This document shows, one piece after another, positions 20,129 through 37,585 of a stretch of DNA of 55,028 nt. Origin of the DNA: Vallitaleaceae bacterium (GTDB taxonomy: Bacteria > Bacillota > Clostridia > Lachnospirales > Vallitaleaceae); assembly GCA_029935405.1 (NCBI GenBank), contig JAOZKH010000001.1:1-55028 (forward strand). The letters are read 5' to 3'. Each line of letters starts with the position of its first letter. The first letter of the stretch is position 1. Under the pieces are notes generated by a model, which was not told where the DNA came from, did not search any database, and saw only the letters and a list, made by a program, of their open reading frames with translations. The position numbers and the translations under genes were made by a program.

Positions 20129-20896
20129 GTGAGTGTAGAACTTTTAGATCGTACGAGGAAGATAAATAAACTTCTTCAAAAAACAGGTGCAGAACGTGTA
20201 ATATTTAAAGATATTTGTGAAGTGATGAGCGATATTTTAGAATCAACTGTTCTTGTACTTAGTAAAAAAGGTAAATTATTAGCTAAATTCACTAGGGGAA
20301 CTATTGATTCGAATGATGAATTATTCGTTGCCGAGTATAGAGAATTTATTAATAAACAATTAAATGAAAGATTGTTAAACATACTATCTACTAAAGAAAA
20401 TATTAATTTAGTTACATTAGGGTTTGACAAAGAGTACACAGACAGAGGATATATTGGTATGGTTTCTCCAATTGATATTGCAGGTGAAAGACTTGGAACA
20501 TTGGTTATGTATCGTACTAATAAGCCTTATGATATAGAAGATATTATTCTTGGAGAATATGGAGCAACTGTTGTTGGTCTTGAAATCATGAGATCTGTTA
20601 ATGAAGAAAACTCAGAAGAGGTGAGAAAATACTCAATTGTAAAATCTGCAATTAGTACCTTATCGTTTTCAGAACAGGAAGCAATTAAACATATTTTTAA
20701 TGAGCTAAGCGGTAGTGAAGGAATATTAGTTGCATCAAAAGTTGCAGATAGAGTTGGCATAACAAGAAGTGTTATTGTTAACGCATTAAGGAAGTTTGAA
20801 AGTGCAGGAGTAATTGAATCTCGTTCTTTAGGAATGAAAGGTACGTATATAAAAATTCTTAATGATATTTTGAAGGATGAAGTTGATAAGATATAG
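20129..20896 (+). CDS. codY: GTP- and branched-chain-amino-acid-sensing global repressor CodY
   Basis: Global nutritional repressor of low-GC Firmicutes. N-terminal GAF ligand domain (LLDRTRKINKLLQKTGAERV and onward, to about residue 165) and C-terminal winged helix with VASKVADRVGITRSVIVNAL followed by RKFESAGVIESRSLGMKGTY, the highly conserved DNA-reading helix. 255 residues, standard. GTG start, AGGAGG 7 nt upstream. Own promoter and terminator. It lies just upstream of fla/che, as in B. subtilis, where CodY represses that operon. Confidence 0.97.
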   Translation: MSVELLDRTRKINKLLQKTGAERVIFKDICEVMSDILESTVLVLSKKGKLLAKFTRGTIDSNDELFVAEYREFINKQLNERLLNILSTKENINLVTLGFDKEYTDRGYIGMVSPIDIAGERLGTLVMYRTNKPYDIEDIILGEYGATVVGLEIMRSVNEENSEEVRKYSIVKSAISTLSFSEQEAIKHIFNELSGSEGILVASKVADRVGITRSVIVNALRKFESAGVIESRSLGMKGTYIKILNDILKDEVDKI

Positions 20897-20943
20897 TAAT
20901 GCTTAGAACATAAAATTTGTTTAATAAAAAAAATAATATAGAA

Positions 20944-20977
20944 GGTAGAGGCTAAATATATGGTCTCTACCATTTTT
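20944..20977 (+). terminator. Intrinsic terminator after codY
   Basis: GGTAGAGGC (20944-20952) pairs with GGTCTCTACC (20962-20971) through seven Watson-Crick pairs plus a G-T and a C-G pair, with about a 10-nt loop, then CATTTTT. Confidence 0.75.
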
Positions 20978-20998
20978 GTGTAAAAATTAGTTGAAAGT

Positions 20999-21195
20999 TG
21001 GTATTTGTGGGATGTCGTTATAAGGCAGGAAAGTGTATGCATATGACGCTTGTGGGAGTGCTAATCCCAATTGCTTCAAGGACTAATATACTAAACCTTC
21101 GGTTTAAGAATATTAATCCTAGAATCAATCCGGATCAGAGTCCCATTACGCATCACATGCATACACTTTCTTCTTACGATTGATTACAAATATCA
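20999..21195. repeat. ~197-bp near-palindrome (single long imperfect hairpin)
   Basis: The whole stretch folds back on itself about the apex AAACC-TTC-GGTTT (21093-21105). Best-matched parts of the stem: GAAAGTGTATGCAT (21029-21042) with ATGCATACACTTTC (21157-21170); TAATAT (21084-21089) with ATATTA (21110-21115); CCTA/TAGG-like blocks in between; TCGT (21015) with ACGA (21176); TATTTGT (21002-21008) with ACAAATA (21186-21192). Most mispairs are A-C or C-A, which would be G-U wobbles if the minus strand were transcribed. It may be a MITE-like relic or a structured RNA. Confidence 0.75.
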
Positions 21196-21571
21196 CGGTT
21201 TTTAATATTAATAAAAAGTAGGTATAAACTTGGGATTTAGGGTAAAACTTTGATATGTTTAATAAACAAATATTGTTGACGATACTGGTTATGAAAGTAA
21301 ATAAACTTAAAACTTCGTGGATAAAAACAATTAACTTTATTTTAAACAATCATATTTAAATATCAAGTGAATGTAAAAATCAAAGTATTATGAACAGCTG
21401 CTTTAATTTTTTGCTGATTATGACGATAATATACTTGAGAATATAAAATGAGGACTTGTAATGTTGATGATAATTGAATCTGAATATAAAATATCATCAT
21501 GTAATATTGGTAATAATGAAATGTAAAAATAAATATAATTAACAGGTAAATATTGGCATTATAAATAGATG

Positions 21572-21600
21572 TTGTGTATTTGCGATTTAGCTGATACAAT
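21572..21600 (+). promoter_or_regulatory. Candidate fla/che operon promoter
   Basis: TTGTGT (21572-21577), 17 nt, TACAAT (21595-21600) with an extended -10 TG. An alternative reading is TTGCGA (21580) and TATAGT (21602), spacing 16. The start would lie about 30 nt before flgB. The -35 match is weak. Confidence 0.45.
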
Positions 21601-21635
21601 ATATAGTAGTAGGATTATGAAGGAATGGTGATTTT

Positions 21636-22013
21636 ATGATTCAAAATAGTAGGTCAATGTTTGGTCAATCAGATTTAATAGGACTTGCACTTGACGCCAC
21701 ATGGAAACGTAATAAAGTTATTACCGAAAATATTGCTAATGTTGACACACCAGGATACAAGCGGCAAGAAGTTAGTTTTGAAAGTTATCTTGAAAAGGCA
21801 TTAAAAACTAATGACCCTAGTGATATTATGAAATTAAATAGAGTTGAACCAAGAGTGTATACTGAGAATAGTGGACTTAGTTATAGAAAAGATGGAAATA
21901 ATGTAGATGTAGATACAGAAATGGTATATTTGGCAGAAAATCAGTTGAGATATAACACGCTTATTAGTCAGCTTAATTATGATTTTAAGAGACTTAAGTC
22001 TGTTATCAAATAA
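21636..22013 (+). CDS. flgB: Flagellar basal-body rod protein FlgB
   Basis: Proximal rod subunit exported by the flagellar type III system. The N-terminal rod signature ITENIANVDTPGYKRQEVSF (about residues 29-48) and a C-terminal amphipathic helix with VDVDTEMVYLAENQLRYN are typical. 125 residues. First gene of the fla/che operon, followed by flgC after 13 nt. Confidence 0.96.
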   Translation: MIQNSRSMFGQSDLIGLALDATWKRNKVITENIANVDTPGYKRQEVSFESYLEKALKTNDPSDIMKLNRVEPRVYTENSGLSYRKDGNNVDVDTEMVYLAENQLRYNTLISQLNYDFKRLKSVIK

Positions 22014-25461: not shown

Positions 25462-26266
25462 TATAATAAAATCACACTTTGTTTCCTTTTCTGACCAAAA
25501 AAAACCAATTAACATTATTGATAATAAGGATCCAAGTATTTTAAAAAGCACAGGAAAGTCAATGATTAAAGAACACGAAGCTGGTTCGGAGTCAAGTGTA
25601 GAAGGGTTAAGTCTTAATGACTTGAATTTAAATCCATCTCTTGACTCTTTTCGCAATGAAGAACAACAACAACTTGTTGAAAAGCAGAAAACAATAGCTA
25701 AAAAAAATGGCTACGATGAAGGGTTTAAAATAGGCAAGGATGAAGGCTACAACGAAGGACATAATGAAGGTTATAACGAAGGCATAAAAAAGGCAGAAAC
25801 TGAAATTAGCATTCAATTGTCAAAACTTGATGATGATAGCCAGATTAGGGTTAAAGAACTTAAAGAACAATTAATAAATGAATATAGTGATTACAAAGCT
25901 ACGCTTGAACCTAAAATGTTAACTATTATTGAGGATTTGGTTATGAAACTTATTGGTGAACAGTCGATTAGCAAAGGTGTAATTGTGCATTTGATTAAAT
26001 GCGGTCTTGATGAATTAGAAATCCATGGGGACTTAGTTATCAAAGTATCACAAGAAGATCTTGATTATGTAATCGAAAGAAAAGCAGAACTTACAGAAGA
26101 GCTTAGTGAAAAAATCACAGTAGAAATTCTCAAAGATCAGCAACTTAGTAAAAATGAATGTGTTATTGAAACAGAGATGGGAACTATTGAAAGTAGTCTT
26201 GGAGTACAACTTTCTGGACTTTTAAGAGAACTTAGATTAATTAAAGAAAGTTTAATAGATGGTTAA
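25454..26266 (+). CDS. fliH: Flagellar export ATPase regulator FliH
   Basis: Peripheral-stalk protein that binds the ATPase FliI and docks it to the export gate. It has a disordered N-terminus, then a glycine-every-fourth-residue helix (Gly 86, 90, 94, 98, 102, 106, 110), the GxxxG repeat typical of FliH. The C-terminal E2-like domain ends in ECVIETEMGTIESSLGVQL. Start taken as TTG 25454 (270 aa) because GGAGGTGA ends 8 nt before it; GTG 25433 (277 aa) has no ribosome site. Its stop codon (26264-26266) lies inside the palindrome at 26260-26298. Confidence 0.87.
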   Translation: MSDIIKSHFVSFSDQKKPINIIDNKDPSILKSTGKSMIKEHEAGSESSVEGLSLNDLNLNPSLDSFRNEEQQQLVEKQKTIAKKNGYDEGFKIGKDEGYNEGHNEGYNEGIKKAETEISIQLSKLDDDSQIRVKELKEQLINEYSDYKATLEPKMLTIIEDLVMKLIGEQSISKGVIVHLIKCGLDELEIHGDLVIKVSQEDLDYVIERKAELTEELSEKITVEILKDQQLSKNECVIETEMGTIESSLGVQLSGLLRELRLIKESLIDG

Positions 26267-26298
26267 AGTGTCAAAACTTAGTTTTGACACTTTAACCA
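26260..26298. repeat. Palindromic element, copy 3 (fliH/fliI junction)
   Basis: A perfect 19-bp inverted repeat, TGGTTAAAGTGTCAAAACT (26260-26278) and its complement (26280-26298), with one base at the centre. Compared with copies 1 and 2, G is A in the left arm and C is T in the right arm, so pairing is kept. No T run follows. It supplies the fliH stop codon. Confidence 0.85.
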
Positions 26299-36265: not shown

Positions 36266-37585
36266 ATGGATGATATGTTATCACAAGAGGAAATAAATGC
36301 TTTACTAAAAGGACTTGATACAGATGATGAACCATCGTCAACTGACGGTTTAACGGATGAAGAAAAAGATGCTATAGGTGAAGTGTCAAATATTAGTATG
36401 GGAACGGCAGCAACTACATTATTTTCTTTAGTTAACCAAAAAGTTCTTATTACGACTCCTACAGTTTCCGTTACAACATGGGATAATATTGTTGAACAAT
36501 ATAAGGAGCCATGTGTAGCTATTCAAATTGTATATAAAGAAGGATTAGATGGTACAAATCTTTTGATTCTAAAGGAAGAGGATGTCAAGATAATCGCAGA
36601 CTTAATGATGGGAAATGATGGAAGTAATCCTGACGAAGAGCTTAATGACTTACATTTAAGTGCGATTGGTGAGGCGATGAATCAAATGATTGGTTCAGCT
36701 GCAACATCAATGGCAACAATGTTCCATAAAAAAATAGATATAGCACCACCAATTTCATCGAAGATAAATTTAGAAGAAGCTTTTGATCCGGAAGATATTG
36801 CTGAATTTTTAACGGAAGACTTTATAAAAGTTGCTTTTAATCTTAAAATAGGAGATTTAGTTGACAGTGAAATGATGCAGTTGTATCCAAGAGAATTAGC
36901 TAATGAAATATGTAATGAATTTTTAAATAATCAAGAAGAAGATGTACCAGTAGAAGAAGCATCTGCAACAACCCCGGAAATGAATCAACAACCGATGAAT
37001 CAGAACATGGGAATGAATCAACAGCCGATGAATCAGAATATGGGAATGAATCAACAGCCGATGAATCAGAATATGGGAATGAATCAACAGCCGATGAATC
37101 AGAACATGGGAATGAATCAACAGCCGATGAATCAGAACATGGGAATGAATCAACAGCCAATGAATCAGAACATGGGAATGAATCAACAGCCAATGAATCA
37201 GAATATGGGAATGAATCAACAGCCAATGAATCAGAATATGGGAATGAATCAGAATGGCGCATATGGAATGAATAGTAATGTAGAAGTCCAACAAGCTCAA
37301 TTTCAGAATTTTGATGTTGGTGCGGTAATGCAGCAAAAAGAAAATATTGATTTGATTATGGATGTACAACTTGAAGTTACAGTTGAACTTGGAAGAACGC
37401 ATAAAGCAATCAAAGATATTTTAGAATTTGCCCCAGGAACGATAATTGAATTAAATAAACTATCAGGTGAACCTATTGATGTATTAGTAAATGGTAAAAT
37501 AGTTGCAAAAGGTGAAGTTGTTGTAATTGATGAAAATTTTAGTATTAGAGTAACTGAAATAATTAAACAAAAAAATATGGTATAG
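36266..37585 (+). CDS. fliY: Flagellar motor switch phosphatase FliY (FliN family) with repeat linker
   Basis: C-ring protein with CheY-P phosphatase activity in Bacillus. N-terminal peptide MLSQEEINALLKGL, then a CheC-like domain with two helices of the EVSNISMG and AIGEAMNQMIGSAATS type (E-x2-N centres). A linker (about residues 239-335) holds eight exact copies of the 11-residue unit MNQQPMNQNMG. The C-terminal FliN/SpoA domain has VTVELGRTHKAIKDILEFAP. ATG 36266 has AAGGAGG 9 nt upstream; ATG 36257 touches it. 439 residues. Overlaps nothing and ends at a terminator. Confidence 0.95.
   Translation: MDDMLSQEEINALLKGLDTDDEPSSTDGLTDEEKDAIGEVSNISMGTAATTLFSLVNQKVLITTPTVSVTTWDNIVEQYKEPCVAIQIVYKEGLDGTNLLILKEEDVKIIADLMMGNDGSNPDEELNDLHLSAIGEAMNQMIGSAATSMATMFHKKIDIAPPISSKINLEEAFDPEDIAEFLTEDFIKVAFNLKIGDLVDSEMMQLYPRELANEICNEFLNNQEEDVPVEEASATTPEMNQQPMNQNMGMNQQPMNQNMGMNQQPMNQNMGMNQQPMNQNMGMNQQPMNQNMGMNQQPMNQNMGMNQQPMNQNMGMNQQPMNQNMGMNQNGAYGMNSNVEVQQAQFQNFDVGAVMQQKENIDLIMDVQLEVTVELGRTHKAIKDILEFAPGTIIELNKLSGEPIDVLVNGKIVAKGEVVVIDENFSIRVTEIIKQKNMV
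36980..37243 (+). repeat. Eight 33-bp tandem repeats in the fliY linker
   Basis: Units begin at 36980 and repeat every 33 bp to 37243, with a partial ninth. Differences are only synonymous third-position changes (CCG/CCA, AAC/AAT, CAA/CAG), so the array is recently expanded or kept homogeneous. Confidence 0.95.

Follow-up and report, generated by a model that had tools for sequence, protein, structure and literature searches.

A long hairpin between codY and flgB belongs to a multicopy, covarying and probably mobile repeat family found at gene 3' ends

Introduction

Between codY and flgB, the 55,028-nt stretch of clostridial DNA analyzed here (the window) contains a near-palindrome of 197 nt, raising the question of whether such a long hairpin is a transcribed RNA, a mobile element or a terminator for the gene in front of it. 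A preliminary description made from the sequence of the window offered two readings, a structured antisense-oriented RNA or the decayed copy of a perfect palindrome such as a MITE. We use gene names (codY, flgB and others) that are readings of translations and not annotations. The codY side of the element is called its A side and the flgB side its B side; for the window copy, B to A is the minus strand.

Results

A single long hairpin that folds best on the minus strand

The interval 20999-21195 folds as one hairpin around a 3-nt apex, confirming the near-palindrome noted in the preliminary description (Table 1). As minus-strand RNA it has a predicted energy of -85.0 kcal/mol (z -12.0, with none of 200 shuffles equal or better), and as plus-strand RNA -80.1 kcal/mol (z -9.8). 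It ranks first in stability among 5484 windows of 200 nt folded at a step of 20 on both strands (mean -30.9, sd 8.4). It is also the top ungapped 67-nt inverted repeat of the whole window, with 49/67 positions matched compared to 37/67 for the runner-up elsewhere. Comparison with other members of the family described below showed that the repeat reaches slightly past these ends into AT-rich terminal repeats. The element lies between the codY terminator and flgB (21636) and starts within or right after the T-run of that terminator.

Table 1. Features of the window copy and its site.
Feature	Position	Strand	Basis or remark
codY intrinsic terminator hairpin, then ATTTTTGTGT	20944..20971	+	sole terminator-like site found in 20850-21700
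A-side terminal region: T-run, AAAATTAGTTGAAAG, TATTTGTG	20972..21009		decayed form of the TTTTTTGATATTGAAAAAATAGTCAAAAGATGATGTTTGTGAC end of other copies; outer boundary inferred
A-side segment TCGTTATAAGGC	21015..21026	+	decayed TCGCYATAA.., which most own-genome copies have on their A side
Core matching covariance model R2, 126 bits	21025..21172	-	window copy is one of the 19 training sequences of R2
Hairpin A arm	21029..21095		folding, inverted-repeat search
Mid-stem motif, 3' half; minus strand GCACUCCCAC	21052..21061	-	conserved across alignment
Apex, 3 nt	21098..21100		folding of both strands
Hairpin B arm	21104..21170		folding, inverted-repeat search
Mid-stem motif, 5' half; minus strand AUGGGACUCU	21137..21146	-	conserved across alignment
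B-side terminal region GATTACAAATATC...	21173..21230		decayed form of GTCACAAATATAATCTTTTTC; outer boundary inferred

Other repeats were seen in and around this site. Near-identical terminator hairpins (GGTAGAGRCTAAATA...GTCTCTACC) occur at codY (20944-20971) and at the gene before C15:10459 (L066), and element end sequence follows both. An 18-nt direct repeat (16/18) at 20915-20932 and 21253-21270 brackets the terminator and the element; it is possibly a target duplication and possibly chance in AT-rich DNA. Elsewhere in the window, another inverted-repeat family with ends TGGTTAAGGTGTCAAAACT... and the reverse complement forms a 120-bp hairpin (1208-1327) and a 39-bp near-perfect palindrome (26258-26296), and L162 and L066 show similar ends.

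The proposal that mispairs of the window copy become G-U wobbles if the minus strand is read was borne out, with five G-U against two A-C mispairs on that strand. Mispairs were counted by a strand-neutral alignment of the two arms. Across all 26 elements examined, the B to A strand has 141 G-U against 61 A-C mispairs, and G-U outnumber A-C in 23 of them; with one element per near-identical group the counts are 102 and 49 (p=2e-5). Scored against a consensus structure that was derived from the B to A strand itself, the excess is confined to the upper stem (42 v 3), the lower stem showing none (14 v 13). A few shared upper-stem columns carry much of this bias and thus there are fewer independent events than cell counts. 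All nine elements folded both ways are more stable on the B to A strand, and the RNAalifold consensus is -71.1 on this strand versus -35.3 for the opposite strand of the same alignment. As modeled, this better folding is consistent with either a minus-strand RNA or a hairpin of minus-strand single-stranded DNA. Around the window copy, 11 sigma-70-like matches compare with a mean of 7.2 (sd 2.2) in shuffled DNA, which is not clearly above chance.

Further copies within the genome

A BLAST search of the own genome (G000; 2.92 Mb, 250 contigs) returned 14 matches on eleven contigs, so the hairpin is multicopy and the single-copy occurrence that would have spoken against the preliminary reading was not found. 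In all, the genome contains at least 11 further such elements besides the window copy, plus end remnants. With opposite-strand self matches and split matches counted once, those found by BLAST are the window copy, C124, C79, C236 and C75, a copy cut by a contig end (C93), two opposite halves each cut by a contig end and possibly from one copy (C239 and C111), a copy with its centre deleted (C141), and two short hairpins (C179 and C96). The elements share ends of approximately 20 bp on both sides, and this end pattern led to a second subfamily (C140 and C123) that has the same ends and a different core. End remnants occur at C15, C136, C133 and perhaps C215. Among the loci read, terminal-pattern searches yielded only elements and remnants, none of them an autonomous insertion sequence. 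Five aligned copies of subfamily I are 86-96% identical over the core, indicating recent spread.

Two further observations concern these loci. A different repeat is inserted within an arm of the C75 hairpin (L006, G000:C75:6956-7067) and represents a second repeat family, flanked by a direct GCAGGCA repeat; it has 31 genome matches at E 0.1 or better, some of them in tandem arrays with a period of approximately 95-125 bp. Identical inverted terminator hairpins GGGCTGTTGCATATTGCACAGCCC flank both element halves at the two contig ends (L007/L008, C239/C111).

Distribution in other genomes

By its CodY relatives in named genomes, the own genome falls close to Vallitaleaceae and Anaerotalea. The window element used as a DNA query matched none of 58 relatives. 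A query from the second subfamily revealed diverged elements in G001, a member of the same genus; its weak BLAST matches in G006, G033, G035, G039, G051 and G058 were not counted, and inspection of G033 and G058 showed no element there. The preliminary description had suggested searching for homologues with a covariance model. Model R1, built from eight elements, was searched against 22 genomes of the taxonomic family. With a cutoff of E 0.01 it matched five of them, namely the four genus members (G000, G001, G002 and G003) and, with one element, G014 from another genus. The three other species of the genus searched carry 12, 2 and 2 elements. Model R2, built from 19 elements, matched the four genus members and gave a weak 66-nt match (model positions 42-107) in G044 among 392 genomes of the order, and matched only the own genome among 391 genomes of the class; these scans used stricter filters that drop weak matches, and the G014 match found by R1 was lost in the scan of the order. 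A second R2 match in the window (37014-37132, 17.8 bits, E 0.055) was rejected as a tandem repeat inside a long ORF.

The window copy had no match in Rfam at the gathering score. When five loci were compared with Rfam at E up to 5, all matches were below the gathering score and most were to microRNA hairpin models. No match to the window element was found in phages, nor to a G001 element in plasmids. Exact pattern scans of reference genomes and viral contigs, including a scan of viral contigs for the mid-stem motif, found nothing; such strict patterns would miss most members.

Stems covary around a fixed motif

We aligned 19 elements (alignment A2). The elements left out were one cut by a contig end (C93), two halves (C239 and C111), and those that are short or centre-deleted (C141, C179, C96, G1C18a, G1C10, G2C29, G3b and G14). 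Two imperfect rows were kept: C75 includes the edge of the nested insertion, leaving part of its lower stem scored as unpaired, and G1C62, with 11 'other' and 5 A-C cells, looks misaligned in the lower part of the stem. Pairing was found in 91.3% of 1042 cells versus 67.7% in shuffles, and it dropped to 37-47% when the partner arm was slid. Cells changed on both sides numbered 252 versus 74.1 in shuffles, with none of 500 shuffles as high. Compensatory changes, the lack of which in relatives would have counted against the preliminary reading, are thus abundant, with 47 of 55 pairs changing on both sides. Between subfamilies the stem sequence is replaced almost wholly and pairing is retained.

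One part of the stem does not follow this turnover. In RNA orientation, an asymmetric mid-stem motif, in which AUGGGA-N-N-UC (5' side) faces GCRCUCCCAC (3' side), is invariant or nearly so in the 19 rows. It is kept in the G001 elements, in which the ends differ. Stems that change around a constant internal motif are not the product of random decay of a palindrome. The preliminary reading therefore stands in part: multicopy occurrence, compensatory changes and minus-strand folding agree with it, and the idea of decay from a perfect palindrome fails in that form because copies share mispairs and the motif is conserved across species. The unpaired places in copies are largely inherited and not random decay. 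A peptide-coding role was dropped since the gaps of the alignment do not come in multiples of three.

Some decay does occur, as shown by one-sided changes among near-identical copies of subfamily I, of which 11 broke a pair and 5 kept it; three double changes kept the pair. Between the closest orthologues, in G002 and G003, 14 pairs changed; eight are unpaired in one or both and only two are double changes that kept pairing, which points to only weak short-term selection for pairing. Per pair of sequences, double changes that kept pairing rise from 0.3 above 90% identity to 21 below 50%, and unpaired places over the same range rise from 2.7 to 7-10. Judging from these comparisons, it appears that single copies decay a little and that lineages that last retain pairing. 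Template switching at quasi-palindromes could, in the absence of selection, yield some double changes; the fixed mid-stem motif is not explained by it.

Elements lie at gene 3' ends

The genomic context of 26 elements was taken from an uncurated simple ORF call in which some neighbors are short and doubtful (for example at C124 and G1C66). For the window copy the B-side call was spurious, and a hand reading as the 5' end of flgB was used in the counts; C93 has no B side, leaving 25 elements for gene-pair orientation. The A side faces a gene 3' end in 24/26 elements, and 14/26 are within 30 nt of that end, leaving little room for a separate dyad symmetry after the stop codon. Convergent genes flank 16/25 elements and divergent genes none, compared to 0 of 15 convergent pairs among the intergenic gaps of at least 50 bp in the window, a small sample. 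In another seven, A faces a 3' end and B a 5' end; two show the reverse. This A-side preference in co-directional gaps (7 v 2, with orthologues among the seven) is not significant on its own.

Some sites are shared between species. An element is found behind rpoC at the same site in G002, G003 and G001, within 14 nt of rpoC in the first two. Another orthologous site has an aminopeptidase gene on one side and an ABC-permease gene on the other, and the interval before pyrG has elements in G000 and G001. By contrast, the interval between codY and the flg genes has no element in the three congeners G001, G002 and G003; this empty site could instead reflect loss.

Terminator features were seen in part of the family. 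Read from A to B, 11/25 elements have a T-run of five or more after the stem, and the longest post-stem T-run is longer than that in the B to A direction in 13/25, equal in 8 and shorter in 4. Reading by eye, a hairpin with a T-run precedes C236 and C239 and sits on the B side of C111 and C123. The window copy is not needed as a terminator since that of codY is already in front of it. The preliminary description had also suggested inspection for target-site duplications; no exact direct repeat of at least 8 bp recurs at the ends of the 26 elements, the boundaries of which are uncertain.

Discussion

We propose that the palindrome is probably a copy of a non-autonomous, MITE-like mobile hairpin that is recognized as a folded strand and that serves as a 3'-end hairpin or terminator once resident. 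The minus strand (B to A), once folded, would be recognized by a putative trans-acting enzyme, most likely via the nearly invariant mid-stem motif, and this enzyme would insert new copies at the 3' ends of genes, in many cases right after a terminator hairpin. The resident copy would then add to, or stand in for, the hairpin at the 3' end of the gene: read from A to B, it often places a long stem and then a T-run only a few bases behind a stop codon, an arrangement that should stop transcription and protect the mRNA end. Against mobility of this kind are the lack of target-site duplications of at least 8 bp and of a transposase gene flanked by hairpins among the seven Y1-transposase loci of the four genomes, and against use as a terminator is that the strand bias favors the strand opposite to the proposed terminator transcript. 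More tentatively, and with a good chance of being wrong, mobility may depend on a folded single strand, either RNA or single-stranded DNA, in which a mid-stem recognition loop is conserved and the rest of the stem is free to change; a putative enzyme acting in trans would copy this element to gene 3' ends and terminators, and the new copy would take over as the terminator of that gene.

It is unlikely, though worth weighing, that the family consists primarily of small structured RNAs made from the minus strand and acting in trans or antisense to the neighboring 3' end, with mobility secondary. The 9/9 preference for minus-strand folding, the consensus energies, the 102 to 49 excess of G-U and the conservation of the motif across species all agree with this, but no promoter stands clearly above chance around the window copy, T-runs are weaker in the B to A direction, the copies are scattered behind unrelated genes, the lower stem lacks the bias and Rfam has no match.

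Equally unlikely is a DNA MITE of a classical insertion sequence in which the terminal inverted repeats are recognized as duplex, the hairpin is a by-product and compensation arises by template switching in quasi-palindromes and not by selection. Such an origin would explain the ends of approximately 20 bp common to both sides, the centre-deleted copies (C141, C179 and C96), the end remnants (C15, C136 and C133) and the one-sided pair-breaking changes in recent copies. It fits poorly with G001, where the ends differ while the mid-stem motif is kept, and with the lack of duplications of at least 8 bp at 26 elements; moreover, template switching would neither spare an asymmetric internal motif nor favor one strand.

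A REP-like element mobilized by a RAYT-type tyrosine transposase present in all four species is quite improbable. Proteins of the Y1-transposase type are encoded in 4/4 genomes of the genus, including one of 263-264 aa in G000 and G003, and many G001 stems begin with GTAG, given in the part of PMC3733652 compared as the tag of one REP superfamily. However, the GTAG is paired and varies (GTAG, GCAG, ACAG, ATAG), the length is 150-200 nt and not 20-40, and none of the seven Y1-transposase loci in the four genomes has a hairpin element, leaving a link between these enzymes and the hairpins unsupported. The RAYT-like protein of 263-264 aa is encoded near a phosphoribosyltransferase-like gene in both G003 and G000 (L262, L265), as if long resident. 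A giant terminator that works in both directions, selected where gene ends converge and devoid of mobility, as the 16/25 convergent settings and the element within 14 nt of rpoC in G002 and G003 might suggest, is very improbable as the sole explanation given the near-identical copies at unrelated loci and the sites that are empty in congeners.

Our preferred reading of a mobile, strand-recognized hairpin matters beyond this locus. Bacterial repeats that form long hairpins are commonly classed as decaying MITEs. In this family, stems that covary across species around a fixed asymmetric motif suggest that the folded strand is, or was, read by something. Recognition and the effect on 3' ends can also be probed with the covariance model of the family and with its filled and empty sites.

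As judged by titles and abstract openings, the family was not found described in the literature searched. General traits of a MITE of a classical insertion sequence (multicopy, small, non-coding, mobile) were found in it. With REP/BIME sequences it shares a palindromic form and a genome that encodes Y1 transposases, but REPs are 20-40 bp and no RAYT gene is flanked by the clostridial hairpins; size, GTAG tag and flanking RAYT gene all speak against membership. Recognition of single-stranded REP DNA by a RAYT protein is reported in the portion of PMC3733652 compared. In the passages compared, ERIC (IRU, RU-1) is an intergenic long stem-loop of around 127 bp (PMC2229807), a form shared by the clostridial family; ERIC differs in its TA termini and target duplications and in its hosts, enterobacteria and vibrios. 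A systematic survey of 40 genomes, those of C. perfringens and C. tetani among them, described repeated stem-loop families (Cozzuto et al. 2008; PMC2267715). Those families are likewise repeated hairpins; the portion compared contains no genome of this group.

The closest in behavior is YPAL (RU-2) of Yersinia, which the passages compared describe as a multicopy, intergenic long hairpin of approximately 168 bp that targets sites beside or across dyad symmetries, has filled and empty sites, and is linked to upstream transcripts (PMC2229807, PMC2267715). The clostridial family is likewise a long single hairpin (approximately 170 nt) that is multicopy and intergenic. It differs from YPAL, to which we liken it by description, in belonging to another phylum and in showing no target duplication of at least 8 bp, where those of YPAL are 3-26 bp. 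We know of no mobilizing enzyme for YPAL either. Near-complete turnover of the stem around a fixed mid-stem motif characterizes the clostridial family and is not mentioned for YPAL in the passages compared. By analogy, the family appears to be a bacterial long-hairpin, MITE-like repeat that can be set beside YPAL as its clostridial counterpart.
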